From a virus: 64,000 bases of DNA. The position numbers and the translations under genes are program-made. Below the pieces are notes generated by a model. It was not told where the DNA came from. It made no database searches and saw only the letters and a list, made by a program, of their open reading frames with translations. Position 1 is the stretch's first letter. Each line of letters starts with the position of its first letter. Location: IMG/VR virus record IMGVR_UViG_3300028392_000029, positions 124,001 to 188,000 of that record; one strand, written 5' to 3'. Below, piece after piece: positions 26,196 through 40,438 of this stretch.

Positions 26196-26879
26196 TCAAA
26201 ATTTATAAATTTCTATTGTGTATGCAGGATCTTTAAATATTTTTTCTTTGATTCTAATTTCTAATCTTGTCTTTCCACTATAGACTTTAACATTGGCTAA
26301 AGTAGGGTCGATGATTGATGTTACTACCATTGATTTATTTTGTTTACTAAATGTACATGCAGTATCTAAATACCTTAGTGCAGTATTACTAATTTTAAAT
26401 CCTGCTAGCGAACAATTCAATGTATTTGAATCTCTAAAAATAGACAACAAATAGTATTCTTTAATAGCCGATACTTTTTTCATCCAACCATTAACATACA
26501 GATTCCACACTTGCTGTTTATCTTTATTTTTAAAATACTCTGATGACAGTTCTGTTTCCGATAATGGTTGATACATACTTGCCTCGGTAGTAGCAGTTTT
26601 CAGAGTTTGTACACTCTTAACGTCAATGCCAATATTACTACCAACACTTACATCGGCAATACCTTTGCCAGCACCGCACCATTTACCCCCGGCGATACTA
26701 TCTGCAACTGCATATTCCCATAATTCTTTACCCATGCTAGCAGGCCGACCTAATGCAATATGTTTACGTAACGGCTGTATAACAGGATCAATTTCTTTTT
26801 GAAACTGTGCTATAAAATCCTTACCGACTAATATTTTTAATTCGGAAGCCAGCATAGGAGTAAGACAGTAGTTGCTCAA
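26196..26879 (-). CDS. Putative PD-(D/E)xK-like nuclease
   Basis: 227 residues. KELWEYAVADSIAGGKW followed by GIADVSVGSNIGIDVKSVQ has the order expected of a restriction-endonuclease-like active site (E ... D ... DxK, about residues 52 to 91). No standard family name can be given. It overlaps the FEN-type nuclease gene by ATGA, which supports a DNA-metabolism role. It could instead be a Holliday-junction or anti-host nuclease. Confidence 0.45.
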   Translation of the reverse strand: MSNYCLTPMLASELKILVGKDFIAQFQKEIDPVIQPLRKHIALGRPASMGKELWEYAVADSIAGGKWCGAGKGIADVSVGSNIGIDVKSVQTLKTATTEASMYQPLSETELSSEYFKNKDKQQVWNLYVNGWMKKVSAIKEYYLLSIFRDSNTLNCSLAGFKISNTALRYLDTACTFSKQNKSMVVTSIIDPTLANVKVYSGKTRLEIRIKEKIFKDPAYTIEIYKF

Positions 26880-27895
26880 TTAACATCCTTAAATAAATTT
26901 AGGGCCGCTTTAGTGGTTGGATATTTTGCTTGGAATGGCTCGGCGTACGATTGTATATTGTCTGCAATTTTCTTCATATCCCAAGCATTGCAGAATTTTA
27001 GCATACGAATACCTACTTGATCTACTGTCTTAGGTACAGAGTTGGCTTTAATAGTTTCTGTAATCTTTACTTTAACATCTGCCGGTTGTGCTGTTAAGTC
27101 GCATAGTTGTACATTACGCTGATAGTCTTCTAAAACTCTGTGTTCTTGTCCATTATGGTCGACCCATCTCTGCAACATGAGATTGTTCCACGCATATCCG
27201 CGGCTTTTACGATCTTCGAATGCTTCAGTAAGACCCACTTTGTTTTTTGTACCTTTAGTACGCACACCTGGATACGCCGAGAAGACATTATCACTGGTAT
27301 CACCGCGCATACATTTCTCGAACAGCATCCACTCTGGATCTTGTGCTGGCTTTGGCTCTCCCGTCTTTTTGTCTTTAACAGGTTTGCCCTTGGCATCAAA
27401 GATACCGTTGTGTGTGATATGTAAATCACCTACACCGTTATACTGGCTAACGGTAGGACTTACGAGCTGTGCAAAATCTCCGTCTGTTGAAATAATAACA
27501 TGTTTTGCTTCTGGATGGCTTTGAATCCAGCCAGCAATCAAATCATCAGCTTCTAAGTTAGGATGTTGCATTACAGTAGCATTGGTCTTTTCTGTAATAA
27601 AATCTTTAAACTGATCAAACGCTTCCCAGAACAATTTGTCTTCTTCTTGTTCTCGAACAGTCATAGCACTACGAGTTTCTTGTCTATTAGCCTTGTAAGG
27701 CTTGTAATAGTCCTTACGCCAGCTTCGACCCTCGAGGCAGAATACTACATGGGTGCCTCCGAAGTCGTTCCATGCTTTTTTGATACTGTTAAGTGTAATA
27801 TGAAATGCCATGCCCAATTTAATATCGGCAGAGCCTTGAACCACGTGTCTAGCACGAAAGAATGTATTTGCAGTGTCGACAATGATATATGTCAT
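26876..27895 (-). CDS. RNase H / 5'-3' exonuclease (FEN/PIN type)
   Basis: 339 residues. MTYIIVDTANTFFRARHVVQ is the N-terminal metal-binding start of FEN-type nucleases; HPNLEADDLIAGWIQ holds the acidic LEADD motif, IISTDGDFAQLV the STDxDFxQL motif, and MRGDTSDNVFSAYPGV the GDxSDN helix-hairpin-helix region. Family role: removal of Okazaki RNA primers, as T4 rnh. Length matches T4 RNase H (about 305 aa). Confidence 0.88.
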   Translation of the reverse strand: MTYIIVDTANTFFRARHVVQGSADIKLGMAFHITLNSIKKAWNDFGGTHVVFCLEGRSWRKDYYKPYKANRQETRSAMTVREQEEDKLFWEAFDQFKDFITEKTNATVMQHPNLEADDLIAGWIQSHPEAKHVIISTDGDFAQLVSPTVSQYNGVGDLHITHNGIFDAKGKPVKDKKTGEPKPAQDPEWMLFEKCMRGDTSDNVFSAYPGVRTKGTKNKVGLTEAFEDRKSRGYAWNNLMLQRWVDHNGQEHRVLEDYQRNVQLCDLTAQPADVKVKITETIKANSVPKTVDQVGIRMLKFCNAWDMKKIADNIQSYAEPFQAKYPTTKAALNLFKDVN

Positions 27896-28584
27896 TTTAG
27901 ATTTTCTGTTATAGTATTAAAAATAGATTGATCCATGAATGGCACAGATTTTGTTATGCTAACATAGTTGTTTACTTTTGGTCTAAGATCAAATGCTATG
28001 CTAACTCGAGGAGTGTCGCCTTGATATGCGTCACTCCAATGTGGAACACAACTAGGAAATAGTGTAATGTCGCCTTTGTTATTTCCAATAACAACATTTG
28101 ATGTAGAATCAAATGGTGACTTATATGTATTTGTGGTGTTGTATGTATCTAAGTGCATATTACCACTTAGATAGGATTCTGGATCTGCACCATGCCCGTG
28201 TTCGCCGATAGACTCCCCAGCTCTTGCAATGTTAAACCAAGAATACAGTTGAAGTTCTCGCCAATTACCATCTTGACTAGCCATGAATTTTAGGTATGCA
28301 ATTCTAATAAAATTTAACATGTCATCTAACTCTGGACATTCTTTGTTAAACTGAAACAGATTATATTTGCCATGCCTTGCGGTCACACTTGCGTCTCCAA
28401 GACCAGTTCCGCCATCGTGATGTACGGGATACCTGTTTATAAAAACTTGTTCTTGTGAAATAAGCCAATTGCGAATGGTATCAATTTTATCATGATCAGC
28501 CCACGTATCCATTCCTATTGGAAAATTCCATGTTGGTGCAAATTCAGTTTTTGCATCGGGACTTTTTATCTTAGCAATTCTCAT
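27892..28584 (-). CDS. 2OG-Fe(II) oxygenase-like protein
   Basis: 230 residues. SWFNIARAGESIGEHGHGAD, then SGNMHL, GDITLFPSCVPHWSDAYQGD and TPRVSIAFDL match the putative 2OG-Fe(II) oxygenase family common in marine phages. H (in EHGH), H (in VPHW) and R (in PRVSIAF) are candidate iron and 2-oxoglutarate ligands; the family's second metal ligand is less clear. Substrate unknown. It lies in the FolE-QueE operon with 4-nt overlaps on both sides. Confidence 0.65.
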   Translation of the reverse strand: MRIAKIKSPDAKTEFAPTWNFPIGMDTWADHDKIDTIRNWLISQEQVFINRYPVHHDGGTGLGDASVTARHGKYNLFQFNKECPELDDMLNFIRIAYLKFMASQDGNWRELQLYSWFNIARAGESIGEHGHGADPESYLSGNMHLDTYNTTNTYKSPFDSTSNVVIGNNKGDITLFPSCVPHWSDAYQGDTPRVSIAFDLRPKVNNYVSITKSVPFMDQSIFNTITENLK

Positions 28585-29015
28585 TTAACTTCGGCTTTGC
28601 CGCCACCTATTTTACTTACATTAATATACCCAGCACTAGCTCTTCCCGGGTCTTGTCCAGCCTCAGCCAACATATTTGATGCTAGATCTCTGAACCAACG
28701 ATCTACTATTTGTTCTTCTGGATCACCATCAAATCCGTAGCCTGCTTGCTTCAATTGTACTATAAATTCCTGATTCCAGTCAAGTTCAAAAAAGCCATTT
28801 CGAATATTATCTTTATTCACATGCGTATCCAAAACACTAACCCAAGGTTCACCTCGTGCAGTAGCACGTTCCTTAGGAGTAGCTTTGGCTTGTTCTTCTG
28901 CTTTTTGTGCTAGTACTGTCTCTGCAACTGCCTTGTCTCTAACAATTTGAAGTGCATCTTTTTCAGCTTGTAGTTTATCGATGCCAAGCCATTTTCTAAA
29001 TAAATTTTTAATCAT
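28581..29015 (-). CDS. Conserved phage hypothetical protein
   Basis: 144 residues from the ATG at 29015 (MIKNLFRKWLGIDKLQAEKD), which overlaps the QueE stop as TAATG; a GTG twelve bases upstream is less likely. A charged Ala-rich helix is followed by a conserved core (RGEPWVSVLDTHVNKDNIRN, GFFELDWNQEFIVQLKQAGY). This core recurs in T4-like phages; function unknown. Confidence 0.65.
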   Translation of the reverse strand: MIKNLFRKWLGIDKLQAEKDALQIVRDKAVAETVLAQKAEEQAKATPKERATARGEPWVSVLDTHVNKDNIRNGFFELDWNQEFIVQLKQAGYGFDGDPEEQIVDRWFRDLASNMLAEAGQDPGRASAGYINVSKIGGGKAEVK

Positions 29016-29860
29016 TAAGTTCCCCACTCGTTTTTAAAGAGTGGAACTTGTAAACGATCGCTATAGCGCCACCCACGTTTCATAGCCGATAGTGCTACAT
29101 TTTTTGCGTTCAATGTATAAACACTTTCCACACCGCCTACTGGCATTAGATAAACATGTCCTTTAAATCCTGCCGACTTAAATTCTGTTACTGCACGTTC
29201 TGCATCTAAAATGTCATCCTCTGTTGCCACAACAAATTTAAGATATGCAGTACCAACTTGTTCATATTCACGAACTACTTCTGGAAGAATTGCTTCTTCC
29301 CACTTTTCACCACTTGCTGGTAATTTGGCACTGACGCTAAACGTAAGTTCTTTACCAACTTCGCTATTCCATTTAGCTAGATAGCTTTTAAATTCTGGAG
29401 TAAGTTTTTGAGTACCATTTGTTTCAAATGTAATTTCTTTCAATGCTTTCATTTTGGGATTGTTAAGCAAATCTGGATAAGCACGTTGCCAACCTAACAA
29501 AGGCTCACCGCCTGTGATAACCAAGTGTTCATCTTGCCATTCATTATGTGGAATAATTTCCATAATACGATCTGTAATTGCTTCGCTTGTAAGCATTGGA
29601 CTTAGATCTTTAAAACTTGGATGCCAACTGGCATAGCTATCACACCCGGTGCTTACTAACGGCAAGTGTTCGTATTTTTCAAACATATGAGCAACCGTTG
29701 CAATCTCTTCAGCTTCTTCGCTGAACATGCCTCGACTCATGCCAAATCCAGCACATTTAAAGTTGCAACCAAATGTACGCAAGAAAACAGACGGTACACC
29801 CATGTAACGTCCTTCGCCTTGAATTGAATAAAATAATTCTGCTATTTTAATTTTGCTCAT
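29015..29860 (-). CDS. queE: 7-carboxy-7-deazaguanine synthase QueE (phage type)
   Basis: 281 residues. Radical-SAM enzyme that converts 6-carboxy-tetrahydropterin to 7-carboxy-7-deazaguanine. AELFYSIQGEGRYMGVPSVF and RTFGCNFKCAGFGM give the first two cluster cysteines (C32, C36). The third appears displaced by about 37 residues, to C73 in STGCDSYASWH, which matches the usual CDSxYAxW end of the motif. HLVITGGEPLL (about 112-122) binds SAM; ITFETNGT follows. The insertion appears typical of phage QueE, not damage. In one operon with FolE. Confidence 0.82.
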   Translation of the reverse strand: MSKIKIAELFYSIQGEGRYMGVPSVFLRTFGCNFKCAGFGMSRGMFSEEAEEIATVAHMFEKYEHLPLVSTGCDSYASWHPSFKDLSPMLTSEAITDRIMEIIPHNEWQDEHLVITGGEPLLGWQRAYPDLLNNPKMKALKEITFETNGTQKLTPEFKSYLAKWNSEVGKELTFSVSAKLPASGEKWEEAILPEVVREYEQVGTAYLKFVVATEDDILDAERAVTEFKSAGFKGHVYLMPVGGVESVYTLNAKNVALSAMKRGWRYSDRLQVPLFKNEWGT

Positions 29861-30414: not shown

Positions 30415-30584
30415 AGTGCCATTATCCTTGCAATAACTTGTTTAGCTTCTGTGCAATCGTTACGTTCTACTTGTGCTTCAATCGCACGTTCAACAGCCTC
30501 ATGCAATTGACGTAGGTAAGGACGCTCGTTAATAGTTGAATAGGGTTGTGTCCAGCGTAAGGTATACAAGTGTCGAGAGTTCAT
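30411..30584 (-). CDS. Small hypothetical protein, 57 aa
   Basis: Read directly: MNSRHLYTLRWTQPYSTINE, then helical RLHEAVERAIEAQ-like sequence, ending IARIMAL. It exactly bridges folE and the next gene with ATGA overlaps at both ends, which strongly supports a real coding sequence. Function unknown. Confidence 0.65.
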   Translation of the reverse strand: MNSRHLYTLRWTQPYSTINERPYLRQLHEAVERAIEAQVERNDCTEAKQVIARIMAL

Positions 30585-31318
30585 TTTGAAGCATACTCCT
30601 GTTGCATTTTGATATTGTCAAAAAATTCTTTCTTTGTACTCTGGTCGTCTTTAAACGCACCTTTCAACACTGTGGTCTGTGTTAGACTAGAGTGTGCCAT
30701 AATGCCACGATTTTCACAGCAACCATGTGTAGCTTGAATGTATACACCTAAGTTTTCTGCTCCAGTTGCTTTTTGGATTTCTCTAGCAATGTCGTTGCAA
30801 AGTTCTTCCTGGAGAGTCCCGCGACGAGCACACCACTGAGCAATACGAGTGTACTTGCTAAGACCAATAAGTTTTTCTGCGGCGATGATGCCAATGTAAG
30901 CGACACCGCTAACGGGCTGATGATGATGACTGCACATAGAGCGCAACTCGCTACGTACCACCAACATACCTTCGTAACGGTCCGCTGAATCGTTTGGAAA
31001 TGCTGTTGCGTCTGGTGCTTGTTCATATCTTCCTGCCATAACTTCATTAAAATACATTTTAGCCAATCGCTTGGCTGTGCCTTTGCTGTTAGGATCAGTT
31101 TCACGATCGATTAGCAGTGTGTCTAATACTTTTTCAAAAGCTTCTGTAGCTTCATTGATTAAGATTTCCTTGTCACCTTCGTGTAGGTAATCGCTAATGT
31201 TATCTCCAGCCCAGAAACGTTTGTTATCACGTTTCATTTTAAAGCGGATAGCATCTGCAAGGTTACATTCCTCGTAGCCTTTGTCGTCAATATTTTTGTA
31301 TGTTACGGATTCAGTCAT
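30581..31318 (-). CDS. folE: GTP cyclohydrolase I FolE
   Basis: 245 residues. Converts GTP to dihydroneopterin triphosphate, the first step to 7-deazaguanines (and folate). The zinc site is complete: C129 and H131/H132 in RSMCSHHHQPVSG, and C200 in THGCCENRG. NSKGTAKRLAKMYFNEVMAG is the usual N-terminal helix. Slightly longer than bacterial FolE (about 220). First gene of a tight operon with queE, behind a sigma70 promoter. In this context it most likely feeds DNA modification. Confidence 0.9.
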   Translation of the reverse strand: MTESVTYKNIDDKGYEECNLADAIRFKMKRDNKRFWAGDNISDYLHEGDKEILINEATEAFEKVLDTLLIDRETDPNSKGTAKRLAKMYFNEVMAGRYEQAPDATAFPNDSADRYEGMLVVRSELRSMCSHHHQPVSGVAYIGIIAAEKLIGLSKYTRIAQWCARRGTLQEELCNDIAREIQKATGAENLGVYIQATHGCCENRGIMAHSSLTQTTVLKGAFKDDQSTKKEFFDNIKMQQEYASK

Positions 31319-36231: not shown

Positions 36232-36803
36232 ACAGTTTCTTCAAAGAGTGAGGTATAAGTTGATATAGCCATGTTTTCAAGTGTTTTCATATCTTCATCA
36301 CTTAGTCTAAAAGAATAAGATTTAGACTTCGGTAAATGCACTTGTTCAAAATATCCGTAGAAACCTTCATAAGGTGTATACCCGATATTTTCATTCATTG
36401 TAATCAATGTTTTAGCATTGTTATATGCTTTTTCTATCAGTGCTTGAATGTGCGGAGCAGAAAAATCGTAAACTCTTGCTTCGATAATCACTCCGCCTTT
36501 AATTTTAATTCTTAACTGTTGTTGAAACTTTTTCCATACATGGGAATTCTTGTAGTCATTATTAATAATGTCTTCAGCATGCATATCTGCAATAGTTTGC
36601 GCACTAGTTGCATCAACATCTCGAGTTTTTACTTCAAGACCGTATACTAATATGTCTGCGCCATGACCTCGATTAATAGGAACACCCATAGATTCAAGTA
36701 ATGCTTCGACGGCTCTACCTGCATATCCGCCAGCACTTGCTGGTACTTTTTTGCCAATTAGTTGATCAGCAATTTTAAATACTTTTACTTTTGCCTTTAT
36801 CAT
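36228..36803 (-). CDS. Putative PD-(D/E)xK nuclease
   Basis: 191 residues. GRAVEALLESMGVPINRGHG, then ADILVYGLEVKTRD matches E ... D ... ExK of the PD-(D/E)xK superfamily (E near 34, D near 50, ExK near 57-59), followed by a Thr/Ser-rich loop and an Arg/Lys helix. MutH-like or restriction-like cleavage is possible. It overlaps the QueD-like gene by ATGA and lies upstream of it. Confidence 0.6.
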   Translation of the reverse strand: MIKAKVKVFKIADQLIGKKVPASAGGYAGRAVEALLESMGVPINRGHGADILVYGLEVKTRDVDATSAQTIADMHAEDIINNDYKNSHVWKKFQQQLRIKIKGGVIIEARVYDFSAPHIQALIEKAYNNAKTLITMNENIGYTPYEGFYGYFEQVHLPKSKSYSFRLSDEDMKTLENMAISTYTSLFEETV

Positions 36804-37324
36804 TTGATAACTTCATCGTTTTTATATTGAGACCAGTCTGTAAACTTACTTCTATCCATTAGCGTATGTAGACTGTGGGACCATACACCGGGATTAGTTG
36901 CCTTAAAATCTTTGTCATCTATTTTAAGCATTGTATTATAATTCCACAATTTAATGTAAGGAATTGGCACTCTTATTTGCGGAATAAAGTTGTTGTAGTC
37001 ATTCAATCCACCGTCATTAAACTCTTCTACAGCACTTAATGGAATATCTAGACTGCATATATAACCTTCTCCTAGGAAGTATTCAATCATTTCTTCCCAT
37101 TTTTTCCAACCAGCATAGTCGTTGAATACTGGATTAAAACTGTGATTTGCACCAAAGAAAATATGCTCGCAATCATTGTTCACTGCATGAAATGCAATTT
37201 GATCAATTTGTTGAATACCTGTAACAAACAAAGTTTTTAATCCGTATGCAGGAGTATGTTCAATTTCTGTGCCAACAAAAAATGTCACTTGCTCGCTTAC
37301 ACCAGTTGTATAATCACGTTTCAT
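36800..37324 (-). CDS. Conserved T4-like phage protein
   Basis: 174 residues. TFFVGTEIEHTPAYGLKTLF and SFNPVFNDYAGWKKWEEMIE are motifs I associate with conserved proteins of T4-like environmental phages; function unknown. CSLDIPLSAVEEFND and QIRVPIPYIKLWNYNT suggest an alpha/beta fold. Overlaps both neighbours (ATGA and 11 nt). Confidence 0.6.
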   Translation of the reverse strand: MKRDYTTGVSEQVTFFVGTEIEHTPAYGLKTLFVTGIQQIDQIAFHAVNNDCEHIFFGANHSFNPVFNDYAGWKKWEEMIEYFLGEGYICSLDIPLSAVEEFNDGGLNDYNNFIPQIRVPIPYIKLWNYNTMLKIDDKDFKATNPGVWSHSLHTLMDRSKFTDWSQYKNDEVIK

Positions 37325-37565
37325 TCTTTTCTGCCTTCGATCGTTCGTACACTTTAAACATTCTAGTTACATCTTCTATACGTTCAGCAAAATGCTCAGG
37401 AGCACCTCGAGCCGCCGCTTTCATATCATATTCTTCGGGATAGTGTCTTAAACAAGCTCGAGCACCGTCTTTGATTGCTTTTGGAACTCGAGGAGTAGTC
37501 AGGATCTCTAATAGAAATCTTTTAGTTTGTACTACTGCTCGATATCTTTCATCTGGTAACGTCAT
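37314..37565 (-). CDS. BPSL0761-like small protein
   Basis: 83 residues. MTLPDERYRAVVQTKRFLLE, then ILTTPRVPKAIKDGARACLR and HYPEEYD match the small BPSL0761-type proteins of Burkholderia and other Proteobacteria as I recall them. The role of that family is unknown. Likely acquired from a proteobacterial source. First gene of the QueD-containing operon, behind a sigma70 promoter. Confidence 0.55.
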   Translation of the reverse strand: MTLPDERYRAVVQTKRFLLEILTTPRVPKAIKDGARACLRHYPEEYDMKAAARGAPEHFAERIEDVTRMFKVYERSKAEKNET

Positions 37566-37571
37566 ATTTGT

Positions 37572-37599
37572 ATTATACAGTGATTGTAACTAAAATCAA
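37572..37599 (-). promoter_or_regulatory. Sigma70 promoter, TTGATT-16-TATAAT
   Basis: TTGATT (37594-37599) and TATAAT (37572-37577) on the - strand, 16-nt spacer, immediately upstream of the gene starting at 37565 and overlapping the stop of the halogenase-like gene. The -10 is close to the ATG, so the leader must be very short. Confidence 0.6.
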
Positions 37600-38816
37600 T
37601 CGTTTTGGCCAAGTTCGTCAAATATGAACGGCGAACCTTTAAAATAATTATATCCAAAAAACTCATCCATAATAGATAAACTATGTGCTGAAAACAATAT
37701 TGGGGGACCGTTTGCAGGTAATCCCATATCATATGCACGTTGGTTATAGGCCATTAGTTTTCTAAACTCGATATCTCCAGCTAGATTATCTTTTGAGTTT
37801 TGACTAGCTTGCCGCCAAAATTCTGTATCAAAATTACTACCACCGTGATAGATATAGTTAATAATACGTTCTAAAGTCTGTGCTAATCTAACTTGTTCAG
37901 CGTTGGCTTCTTCTTGATTCATTTGACCTGTAACATACTTAAAAATAATACCACATACGTTTGTATAGTGGTTAATCGATGTTGCACTAATTGGTTCAAA
38001 GAATATAGCACGATTGCCGTTCTTGATAACTCTGTTATCAACTAATTTAGTAGTATAATAGGGTTTGAATTTATACTCTTTAGTATCTAATTCGTCTATA
38101 GTTATTTTTAGCATTTCAGCCATGTCAGCTTTTGCATCTTCAACAGTAGTGATTGTGTCGTTAAACAAATAACCATATGTTTTTCTACTAGTTAACGGAA
38201 TTCCAAACATCCATCCATTCTTGGTAGCAAAGTGTTCTGTGTACTGAATAGGATCAAATCTTTCAAAGCTATGTACTAGACATCTGTTTAGAATACTGCA
38301 AGTACTCATATGATAGTCTTCAGAGTAGTCTGTAGGGAAACCTCTGCAATCTATAACATAATCAAATTCTTCATTGGTTCCATTTATTTCTACAATAGCT
38401 TTATCAGAATTATTAATAACATTAGTTACTGTGCCTTCAATTATGGAAAACTTTTGCGGCCAGCATAGAGCTAATCTTTCAAATACAAATTCTTTTAATT
38501 TAAAATTATTAAAATGTACAGCTACCCCGCCCTGTAGCAATGGGTTCAACCATTCCCACTTACGCCAGTTAATATACTTTGTTCCAAATTTAAGTGTGCT
38601 ATCTAATTTTGGAGTATCTTCAAGAGTTGTAAATCGTGTACCTTTTTCCAGTAAGCCAATAAATCCAGGATTAGTACTTTCGCCAATTCCTAAAATAGGA
38701 ATAGCTGGGTCATACAGTGAAACAATGTCCCATTCATTAGTAAGTGTTGAGCAAAGGTGCGACAATGTTAGCACCCCAGCACTACCTACTCCTAGTACAC
38801 CAATACGTTTCTTCAT
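37596..38816 (-). CDS. Flavin-dependent halogenase-like protein
   Basis: 406 residues. GVGSAG (9-14) is the FAD Rossmann motif; GIGESTNPG (43-51) is the GEST signature of tryptophan-halogenase-family enzymes; K76 in STLKFGTKYINWR aligns with the catalytic Lys that forms the haloamine/HOX relay; GWMFGIP (201-207) is a GWxWxIP with W to F; E274 in FFEPISATS aligns with the catalytic Glu. Shorter than bacterial tryptophan halogenases (about 510-540), closer to the viral halogenase VirX1 of a cyanophage. Overlaps dpdA by ATGA. Substrate unknown. Confidence 0.75.
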   Translation of the reverse strand: MKKRIGVLGVGSAGVLTLSHLCSTLTNEWDIVSLYDPAIPILGIGESTNPGFIGLLEKGTRFTTLEDTPKLDSTLKFGTKYINWRKWEWLNPLLQGGVAVHFNNFKLKEFVFERLALCWPQKFSIIEGTVTNVINNSDKAIVEINGTNEEFDYVIDCRGFPTDYSEDYHMSTCSILNRCLVHSFERFDPIQYTEHFATKNGWMFGIPLTSRKTYGYLFNDTITTVEDAKADMAEMLKITIDELDTKEYKFKPYYTTKLVDNRVIKNGNRAIFFEPISATSINHYTNVCGIIFKYVTGQMNQEEANAEQVRLAQTLERIINYIYHGGSNFDTEFWRQASQNSKDNLAGDIEFRKLMAYNQRAYDMGLPANGPPILFSAHSLSIMDEFFGYNYFKGSPFIFDELGQND

Positions 38817-40438
38817 TTAACTTCTCCCTCTAGCTCGTCTAGTTTAGACATTTGATCTTCAGAAAACTCTCCATCTTCTACTTCAATCTCTGCTGTGCTT
38901 GTTCCTACTTCTTCAAACAAATTAGTAAACATTGATTGTGAGTTTAGTGTTTTCTTACCTGTAGCACCTCGAGTTCCAATAATACTCATCCAGAATCTGC
39001 TGTATTCTTCTACCACAGCATCTGCGGTGCCCCGGTCACTAGTTGCAAAGATAGCTTCGATTACATCTTTAAAATATAATCTATCAAACTTTTCTTGTAC
39101 TAGCATATTAGGACAACTGCCTAAATCATATTGTCGATTAGCTTCTTGTACTGCGTTCACATGCATCCAAACATTATGACCCATCATAACAGCATAGGTA
39201 AAACTATCCCAACTTGTTCTATTACTGACTTTACCTAGTTTGTTAACGTCCGGCATTACTGTCCAGTGTGCGGGATTATACGGATCTAGGATTGTTCCGG
39301 GTGGAACATTTGGATTTGGAGTACCAGCGTTGTAGATACAAATTTCATTCATAAGAACACCGTCCATAATTGGACTAGTTGTAAACTTAGGAAATATTTT
39401 ATCCTGTATTACTGCGTCTTGGAAGAGTCTAGTATCTGTTGCGTATTTCTTGTCGTCAGCAGAAGCCTGCATACGGTAGACCCATTTTGTCCTATCGTCT
39501 GTTTCGACATTAGTATAGATTTGTCCGTTTGCTGTTGCAAGGAATGGACTTGCGCAGTCAAAAGAGATGGTAAAGTTTTCATTATGGTATTTCCTAACAG
39601 CACGTTGAATATCGGTTAAAAGAACTGCCCACTCTAACTTAGAGGTGCCTAGGAAGTGCATCCAATCATGTTGACCCTTTTCAAGGAGCCCATCGAATCG
39701 TAATGCCACTAATCTCTTTAGTACAAGGTGGATGTCACACATATTCTGCCCACCCATACCCCAACCGTTAAATGCACGATCGCCGTATTGCGAGCGATCA
39801 CAGTAACGTTTCATTCGTTGATACCAATCTTCGGCATCTGTATGCGTTTCACCTTGTAGTACGTTTAAGAACTTACAGTTACCATTGCGATTATTAACAA
39901 AGTAATCGTTATTGATATATGTGCCTTGCACAGCCTCTGCATATGAACTAATGCCAGTTGCCGCAACACCTGCTGGACTACGAGCAACCCAAGCTGGGAT
40001 ATCAAGACCCATGCCGTAGTCCATTAGTGTGTCCATCCAAGTAAGAACTTGCTGTCGCTTCTTCATAGCTTTAGGACAGTTAGGATCTTTCCAGTCGGCT
40101 GGCCAAACACCTTTACCAATCTGGAATCCGCCTGAGTCACCTAATACCCAACTAGTACTACGATTACGATTTCGGAACATGTCCTCGCTTTCATCTTGTT
40201 TATTCAAATCAAGATTAGCATGGCCTGCCGAATATAAACAGTGGTCATAATAAAATGCACCTTTATCTGGATCAAGATAGTTAAGACTTTCAACACCGTT
40301 TTTAAAACTTTTAGGAATACGTGTAGGATCTACGTAATTGCTATAGCGTTGTTTTCCGATAAAGGTGCTATAAAAGCCGCTAGTTGCTGGCAAGAATACA
40401 GCATAGTCGTTTTGTGTTGCGGTAAGATTTCTATTCAT
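38813..40438 (-). CDS. dpdA: DpdA-like 7-deazaguanine DNA transglycosylase
   Basis: 541 residues. VLGDSGGFQIGKG (98-110) has the first catalytic Asp of tRNA-guanine transglycosylases (D101); FLNVLQGET (190-198) and GWGMGG (225-230) are substrate-loop counterparts; ISFDCASPF (291-299) matches the FDCVxPT nucleophile motif (D294). The canonical C-terminal zinc motif (CxCxxC...H) is not visible. Family knowledge: DpdA exchanges guanine in DNA for a 7-deazaguanine. FolE, QueE and a QueD-like protein encoded nearby support DNA modification over tRNA. Acidic C-terminal tail. Confidence 0.8.
   Translation of the reverse strand: MNRNLTATQNDYAVFLPATSGFYSTFIGKQRYSNYVDPTRIPKSFKNGVESLNYLDPDKGAFYYDHCLYSAGHANLDLNKQDESEDMFRNRNRSTSWVLGDSGGFQIGKGVWPADWKDPNCPKAMKKRQQVLTWMDTLMDYGMGLDIPAWVARSPAGVAATGISSYAEAVQGTYINNDYFVNNRNGNCKFLNVLQGETHTDAEDWYQRMKRYCDRSQYGDRAFNGWGMGGQNMCDIHLVLKRLVALRFDGLLEKGQHDWMHFLGTSKLEWAVLLTDIQRAVRKYHNENFTISFDCASPFLATANGQIYTNVETDDRTKWVYRMQASADDKKYATDTRLFQDAVIQDKIFPKFTTSPIMDGVLMNEICIYNAGTPNPNVPPGTILDPYNPAHWTVMPDVNKLGKVSNRTSWDSFTYAVMMGHNVWMHVNAVQEANRQYDLGSCPNMLVQEKFDRLYFKDVIEAIFATSDRGTADAVVEEYSRFWMSIIGTRGATGKKTLNSQSMFTNLFEEVGTSTAEIEVEDGEFSEDQMSKLDELEGEVK

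Follow-up and report, generated by a model that had tools for sequence, protein, structure and literature searches.

A halogenase-like gene in a variable slot directly behind dpdA in viral genomes

The phage transglycosylases DpdA and DpdA2 (Hutinet et al. 2019, PMC6884629) and the halogenases of cyanophages are among the described systems closest to a pair of genes found in a virus record from IMG/VR. The pair lies on the minus strand of the window, by which we mean the whole stretch of 64,000 nucleotides analysed here (G000:C1:124001-188000 of the 223,176-base record IMGVR_UViG_3300028392_000029). Its first member is a dpdA-like gene (38813..40438, minus strand) encoding a 541-amino acid (aa) predicted DNA deazaguanine transglycosylase with a tRNA-guanine transglycosylase (TGT) fold. 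Directly behind it is an open reading frame (ORF) for a 406-aa protein of the flavin-dependent halogenase family, PF04820/PHROG 2928 (37596..38816, minus strand). The original prediction for this locus was a halogenated 7-deazaguanine in DNA, or halogenation of a free precursor. On balance, we favour the explanation that the second gene, cargo in a slot of variable content behind dpdA, encodes a halogenase-family flavoenzyme under selection whose substrate is probably not the base handled by DpdA.

The cyanophage proteins grouped as T4-GC 212 or PHROG 2928, "tryptophan halogenase" (S-SSM5, S-MS29 and S-ShM2), belong to the same family as the window protein. That of S-MS29 was its best tblastn match (39.6% identity over 85%), all three are similarly short (359-388 aa), and those of S-SSM5 and S-MS29 keep the same lysine and GWMFGIP motif. 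Their genes lie behind gp33 or talC, whereas the window gene lies behind dpdA, and they carry a glutamate at the position of PrnA E346, where the window protein has a serine. VirX1 of cyanophage Syn10 (6qgm) has the same fold (Z 30.0 over 377 residues; sequence E 1.7e-8) but is longer, at 531 aa; its activity has been shown, according to a passage of the review PMC8407142, whereas the window protein is known from its sequence and a model. PrnA, RebH and Thal have the GxGxxG, GE(S/A)T and EP motifs and the catalytic lysine in common with it. In the window protein their catalytic glutamate is replaced by serine and WxWxIP by WMFGIP, and the chain is about 130 residues shorter than that of PrnA (406 versus 538). 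Among the papers listed by our literature search, which had most subscription papers outside its reach, none was seen to report a dpdA-halogenase pair or a link between a halogenase and 7-deazaguanine; searches on Campylobacter with 7-deaza and halogenase returned no report either, and those on dCDG turned up only unrelated work.

The dpdA-like gene and the slot behind it

To find how general the pair is, IMG/VR was scanned with the DpdA-like protein, and the best 80 of at least 599 matching dpdA stretches were kept; six of these loci carried a halogenase-like gene. A second scan with a DpdA of another lineage added 58 further contigs and one more pair, and a scan with an alignment of the halogenase family gave 148 relatives, of which the best 80 were kept. 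The pair was present in 12 IMG/VR contigs that encode six distinct halogenase-like proteins, those of L004 and L005 being identical to the window protein. Partial loci (L001, L002, L090-L092 and L095-L097) and duplicate loci were dropped before counting, and the distant phage DpdAs L106 and L107 were left out of the slot counts and of the single-gain test given below. Fifteen of the 143 dpdA contigs were too short, leaving 128 in which 400 bases or more follow dpdA. In these, the gene directly behind dpdA was PDERY-like in 75, MKRDY-like in 19, halogenase-like in 12, Gfo/Idh-like in 6 and another in 16. The rate of 12 in 128 is biased, as L117-L121 came from the halogenase-driven scan only; in the dpdA-driven scans alone, the pair was present in 7 of 123 assessable contigs.

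The halogenase-like gene occupies a variable slot, elsewhere empty or otherwise filled, between dpdA and its usual followers, because in the window it is followed by the genes that follow dpdA directly elsewhere. These are the PDERY gene ("MTLPDERYR", 83 aa; 37314..37565, minus strand), next behind it, and then the MKRDY gene (174 aa; 36800..37324, minus strand). Lack of conservation of the pair in other genomes would have counted against the original prediction, and the outcome is divided: the pair recurs and its halogenase subclade was paired wherever it was found, whereas 116 of the 128 assessable dpdA contigs have no halogenase-like gene in that place. When 17 larger dpdA records were searched with PF04820, the three pair records matched and 12 had no match; G011 held four long members far from dpdA, and the single match in G005 stayed below the cut-off. 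When genome contigs of bacteria and archaea were scanned, one relative of the halogenase-like protein came up, in a metagenome-assembled genome.

We also considered whether the pair is restricted to one near-identical lineage and rejected this, as L116-L121 carry it at 59-63% identity. Other occupants of the region were seen as well: L119 has a pair of genes, close behind dpdA or the gene next to it, with matches to Gfo/Idh/MocA and alcohol dehydrogenase, and similar Gfo/Idh and dehydrogenase-like pairs were noted by eye in L064, L065, L067-L069, L073, L075 and L081.

The 4-nt overlap first noticed between the dpdA stop and the halogenase-like start (38813..38816, minus strand) was confirmed from the sequence together with both ORFs. 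As evidence of coupling, the overlap was rejected. The same overlap occurs in 11 of 71 same-strand neighbour pairs of the window, the dpdA pair included (counting ORFs of at least 60 aa, chosen by length), and where the halogenase-like gene follows gp33 or talC in cyanophages S-SSM5, S-MS29 and S-ShM2. In many contigs without a halogenase-like gene, dpdA is overlapped by 4 nt by a different gene.

The 541-aa protein is probably a DpdA, judging by its distant relatives and its modelled fold, and the earlier naming of the upstream gene as dpdA agrees with both. By tblastn it matched 13 phage records at 28-36% identity (best 36.3%), while a PDB sequence search, with the protein alone and as a profile, gave chance-level matches only. 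In a Foldseek search with its AlphaFold2 (AF2) model (pLDDT 76.4), the top three rows were TGTs, with 2z1x the best TGT (E 6.2e-5), and all 50 rows listed by the VIA structure search were TGT subunits (Z 17.6-18.8; best QTRT1, 6h62, Z 18.8). Residues D101-Q106, Q195-G196, G229-G230 and D294-C295 were invariant in a 26-row DpdA alignment, and F293 nearly so; we take these to be the TGT active-site signatures DSGGFQ, QG, GG and FDC. The likeness to described phage DpdA and DpdA2 lies in this fold, and relatives at 33-36% identity are found near deazaguanine genes in PA5oct and Vibrio phage 2.275.O. In PA5oct, some 3 kb separate the relative from a 7-carboxy-7-deazaguanine synthase, and in 2.275.O its neighbourhood encodes a 7-cyano-7-deazaguanine reductase, a transporter, a queuosine protein and FolE. 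Part of the survey PMC7824862 credits PA5oct with a deazaguanine system. The main text of PMC6884629 names no halogenase, whereas in the window dpdA is followed by a halogenase-like gene. Although relatives of the 541-aa protein are encoded in at least 599 viral contig stretches, the models of Pfam, PHROG, NCBIfam and PADLOC gave no match to this DpdA type.

A paired subclade and its history

Several observations weigh against the view of the halogenase-like gene as cargo with a substrate of its own. Wherever its subclade (at least 59% identity) was found, it stood immediately behind dpdA (6 of 6 distinct proteins, 12 of 12 contigs). The paired DpdAs nevertheless fall in three places on the DpdA tree, which requires at least three changes. 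Since the subclade occurs only behind dpdA while its partners are so scattered, chance placement fails to explain the adjacency, which must have been either renewed or kept. In addition, the association of other family members with 2-oxoglutarate (2OG)-Fe oxygenase cassettes, given below, does not carry over to the six dpdA-adjacent proteins. The sampling also counts on this side: many contigs have short flanks, and coverage was confined to the best 80 of the 148 relatives and of the at least 599 dpdA stretches. No DpdA-like ORF was found in the available flanks of the other 63 of 69 distinct relatives, many of these flanks and records being short. Of 25 halogenase-bearing records searched whole, three contained a DpdA, and these were the three pair records; G042, which carries the halogenase-like gene L111, had none when searched whole.

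In the halogenase tree (68 rows), the six distinct paired proteins formed one clade with an SH-aLRT support of 99. The full set of 69 distinct proteins consists of the window protein and others, including L143, which is truncated at a contig end and was left out of the tree; DpdAs shorter than 450 aa were dropped beforehand. Both trees come from "quick" searches, and SH-aLRT is their sole measure of support. On the DpdA tree, a single paired clade was rejected (p-AU 0.0065), and one gain of the pair would have to be followed by 22 losses. The tree and its test call for caution, because segments of the DpdA genes look mosaic when windowed identities are compared by eye. The same comparison by eye revealed no recombination trace at the dpdA 3' end common to the paired lineages.

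Either the gene arrived repeatedly in the same slot, perhaps by exchange via conserved flanks, or an old pair was often lost. A pair that is ancestral to the dpdA locus, with many losses rather than several insertions, is a possible though not a probable history, and it concerns history only. In its favour, the branching order of the paired lineages agrees between the halogenase and DpdA trees, and in close pairs both genes have diverged to a similar degree at nonsynonymous sites (dN 0.017 and 0.016; 0.066 and 0.066). These agreements are offset by the 22 losses set against three changes and by L119, in which dN is 0.358 for the halogenase-like gene versus 0.187 for dpdA. Either history, repeated insertion or frequent loss, suggests that DpdA can do without the halogenase-like gene.

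Active-site residues and chemistry of the halogenase-like protein

The protein matched Pfam PF04820 (Trp_halogenase) with 105.5 bits against a cut-off of 21 and PHROG 2928 (tryptophan halogenase) with 242.7 bits (E 1.8e-71). Its AF2 model, built from a 44-row alignment, had a mean pLDDT of 94.2, and all 50 matches listed by VIA were halogenases by title (Z 27.6-40.2), from SttH (5hy5; Z 40.2, 3.0 A over 380 residues) to Bmp2 (Z 27.6). The ratio of nonsynonymous to synonymous divergence (dN/dS) was 0.052 and 0.071 for two close relatives, and the protein is maintained under purifying selection; in comparisons of distant pairs, synonymous sites were near saturation.

The FAD motif, GEST and the lysine, which had been read as kept, are all present: GxGxxG at G9, G11 and G14, GEST at residues 45-48, and Lys76 (codon 38589..38591, minus strand), which aligns with the catalytic lysine of PrnA (K79) and is a lysine in all 69 distinct proteins, the window protein included. 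The catalytic glutamate had been read as kept too, but wrongly: it is missing. In alignments with PrnA, Ser277 (codon 37986..37988, minus strand) falls exactly where the E346D variant (2jkc) and the wild type (2apg) differ, the window protein reading EPISATS versus EPLDSTG and EPLESTG, respectively; the conserved glutamate of this stretch is E274, three residues ahead of Ser277. The position is Ser in all six distinct dpdA-adjacent proteins, and among the other 63 distinct relatives it is E in 34, S in 15, F in 7, Q in 3, T in 2, D in 1 and V in 1. The GWMFGIP form of the Trp box is present at residues 201-207 as first noted, departing from WxWxIP by a Phe at the second Trp position. It is typical of the phage subfamily and nothing special to the window protein, as W202 is found in 69 of 69 distinct proteins and F at the second position in 67 of 69.

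The serine and the phenylalanine would fit a flavin monooxygenase (hydroxylase) built on a halogenase fold, a reading that concerns the chemistry, is compatible with the other explanations considered here and seems to us rather doubtful. In passages of the review PMC8407142, the Trp motif is thought to shield the flavin from the substrate and so to prevent monooxygenation, but several flavin-dependent halogenases are said to be without the motif as well. The invariance of Lys76 and the halogenase titles of all listed fold matches argue against a hydroxylase, and the lone monooxygenase match of the protein, QhpG, was weak (18.8 bits versus a cut-off of 240). The glutamate is absent from phenol halogenases, which act on electron-rich substrates, according to part of the same review; Ser277 therefore argues against a tryptophan-type enzyme and not against halogenation of an electron-rich substrate.

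Candidate substrates and meaning of the locus

One explanation is that the enzyme acts on a component of the virion or of the host surface, as may the phage cassettes that hold some of its more distant relatives; we consider this unlikely for the window protein. An ORF resembling a 2OG-Fe oxygenase lies within 3 kb in 38 of the 63 other distinct relatives, a modest enrichment, as 164 of 431 slots drawn at random from these loci also have one; the 2OG profile was built up from five seeds, of which one scored below the Pfam cut-off. Some relatives have a carbamoyltransferase gene, long ORFs of halogenase type and genes for Gly-rich or fibre-like proteins nearby, identified partly by eye, and according to the survey PMC7824862 carbamoyltransferases, a halogenase and 2OG enzymes occur together in a cyanophage cluster. 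However, none of the six paired genes has such a 2OG neighbour within 3 kb, and neither does any of 105 unpaired distinct dpdA genes; nor do we know of a substrate for any of these relatives.

Such cassettes with 2OG-Fe oxygenases surround the relatives L124, L127, L126, L144, L157, L174 and L183; two of the oxygenases match Pfam in L124, a carbamoyltransferase is present in L144, and long halogenases and fibre-like genes were noted by eye. In the dpdA-bearing L252 (G011:C1:8000-27500, the record of L072), four halogenase-family ORFs of 490-529 aa, with EPLEATS or EPLESTG at the glutamate motif, lie within about 11 kb. They are accompanied by a Gly-rich protein (PF21722), at least one 2OG-Fe oxygenase (one of three candidates tested matched Pfam) and, by eye, more oxygenase-like ORFs and a GroEL-like ORF; this cluster may be a protein- or surface-modifying cassette. 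In L139 (2529-4273), a halogenase-like relative stands directly before what seems to be the counterpart of the 5'-3' exonuclease gene of the window (26876-27895), and the window has a 2OG-Fe oxygenase (27892-28584) in that place. The halogenase-like proteins of L126 (10001-11956) and L131 (6703-8664) carry a C-terminal extension, reaching about 650 aa.

A second explanation makes the enzyme a true accessory of DpdA that oxidises or halogenates 7-deazaguanine as a free base, as a nucleotide or in DNA; this we hold to be quite improbable. Since preQ0 has a nitrile at C7, the likeliest chemistry would be a decarboxylative halogenation of 7-carboxy-7-deazaguanine or a reaction at 7-deazaguanine that has no C7 substituent. 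The constant position of the subclade behind DpdAs from three places in the tree speaks for such a role, and so do two points in PMC8407142, the absence of the glutamate from phenol halogenases and a figure legend that names a decarboxylative bromination by Bmp5. Some candidate genes of the preQ0 pathway are also present. The window encodes FolE, GTP cyclohydrolase I (30581..31318, minus strand; PF01227, 136.1 bits), and a QueE-like radical SAM protein (29015..29860, minus strand; TIGR03365, E 1.6e-16, 60.6 bits, under the curated cut-off of 206.1), and queD is at G000:216338-216721 of the same record. QueC was not found in this record with PF06508, TIGR00364 or two phage QueC-like proteins as queries; as controls, the two profiles matched in 12 of 14 and 14 of 14 genomes, respectively. 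With FolE, QueD and QueE and no detected QueC, the virus might make 7-carboxy-7-deazaguanine, and the enzyme might oxidise it or halogenate it decarboxylatively to give a halogenated genome base, which we regard as very improbable. The subclade would then be a specialised DpdA partner acting before or after insertion into DNA, a role to which we give an equally slight chance. Little weight can be put on the absence of QueC: the virus record may be incomplete, and weak QueC matches were found in 4 of 16 related records, two above the cut-off and one of the four in the pair record G019; queD was present in 7 of the same 16.

The distribution of the two genes argues the other way. With the window proteins as queries (E 1e-5), a phage collection yielded 61 records with halogenase-like proteins, mostly from cyanophages, and none of the 13 DpdA records was among them; the organism groups do not overlap. 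Part of PMC10452541 counts halogenase genes in 20 of 153 cyanophage genomes. A distant relative of the halogenase-like protein (24%) was found in Campylobacter phage CP21; PMC6884629, citing another paper, describes a DpdA-less group of Campylobacter phages, which may not include CP21, as heavily modified with dADG. What stands of the original prediction is thus a halogenase-fold flavoprotein directly behind a DpdA in 12 contigs. Its halogenation of 7-deazaguanine is unsupported: most sampled dpdA contigs have no such gene in that place, the more distant halogenase relatives were found without this DpdA in the flanks available, and the glutamate of the tryptophan-type enzymes is a serine.

In the favoured explanation, a functional FAD enzyme from the phage branch of the halogenase family, kept by selection, is carried as cargo behind dpdA; the DpdA base is an unlikely substrate, since most sampled relatives keep dpdA without the halogenase-like gene. 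The gene would have arrived by recombination and would be translated together with dpdA. No flavin reductase (PF01613) was found in the virus record, with a control positive in 13 of 14 genomes, and the enzyme would take FADH2 from a host flavin reductase and form a flavin hydroperoxide. Lys76 could then hand an oxidised halide on to an electron-rich aromatic compound inside the infected cell, with Ser277 standing where the usual glutamate would be. The likelier substrates would be a small metabolite of the host, a protein or a component of a surface. We know of no natural substrate for the halogenase-like genes of cyanophages.

The occurrence of the subclade only behind dpdA provides a concrete and cheap substrate hypothesis. 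If the enzyme does act on deazaguanine and halogenates a genome base, it would be the first one known to us to do so. If it has no role with deazaguanine, the locus would be a clear case of a DNA-modification locus with one fixed slot in which cargo is exchanged.

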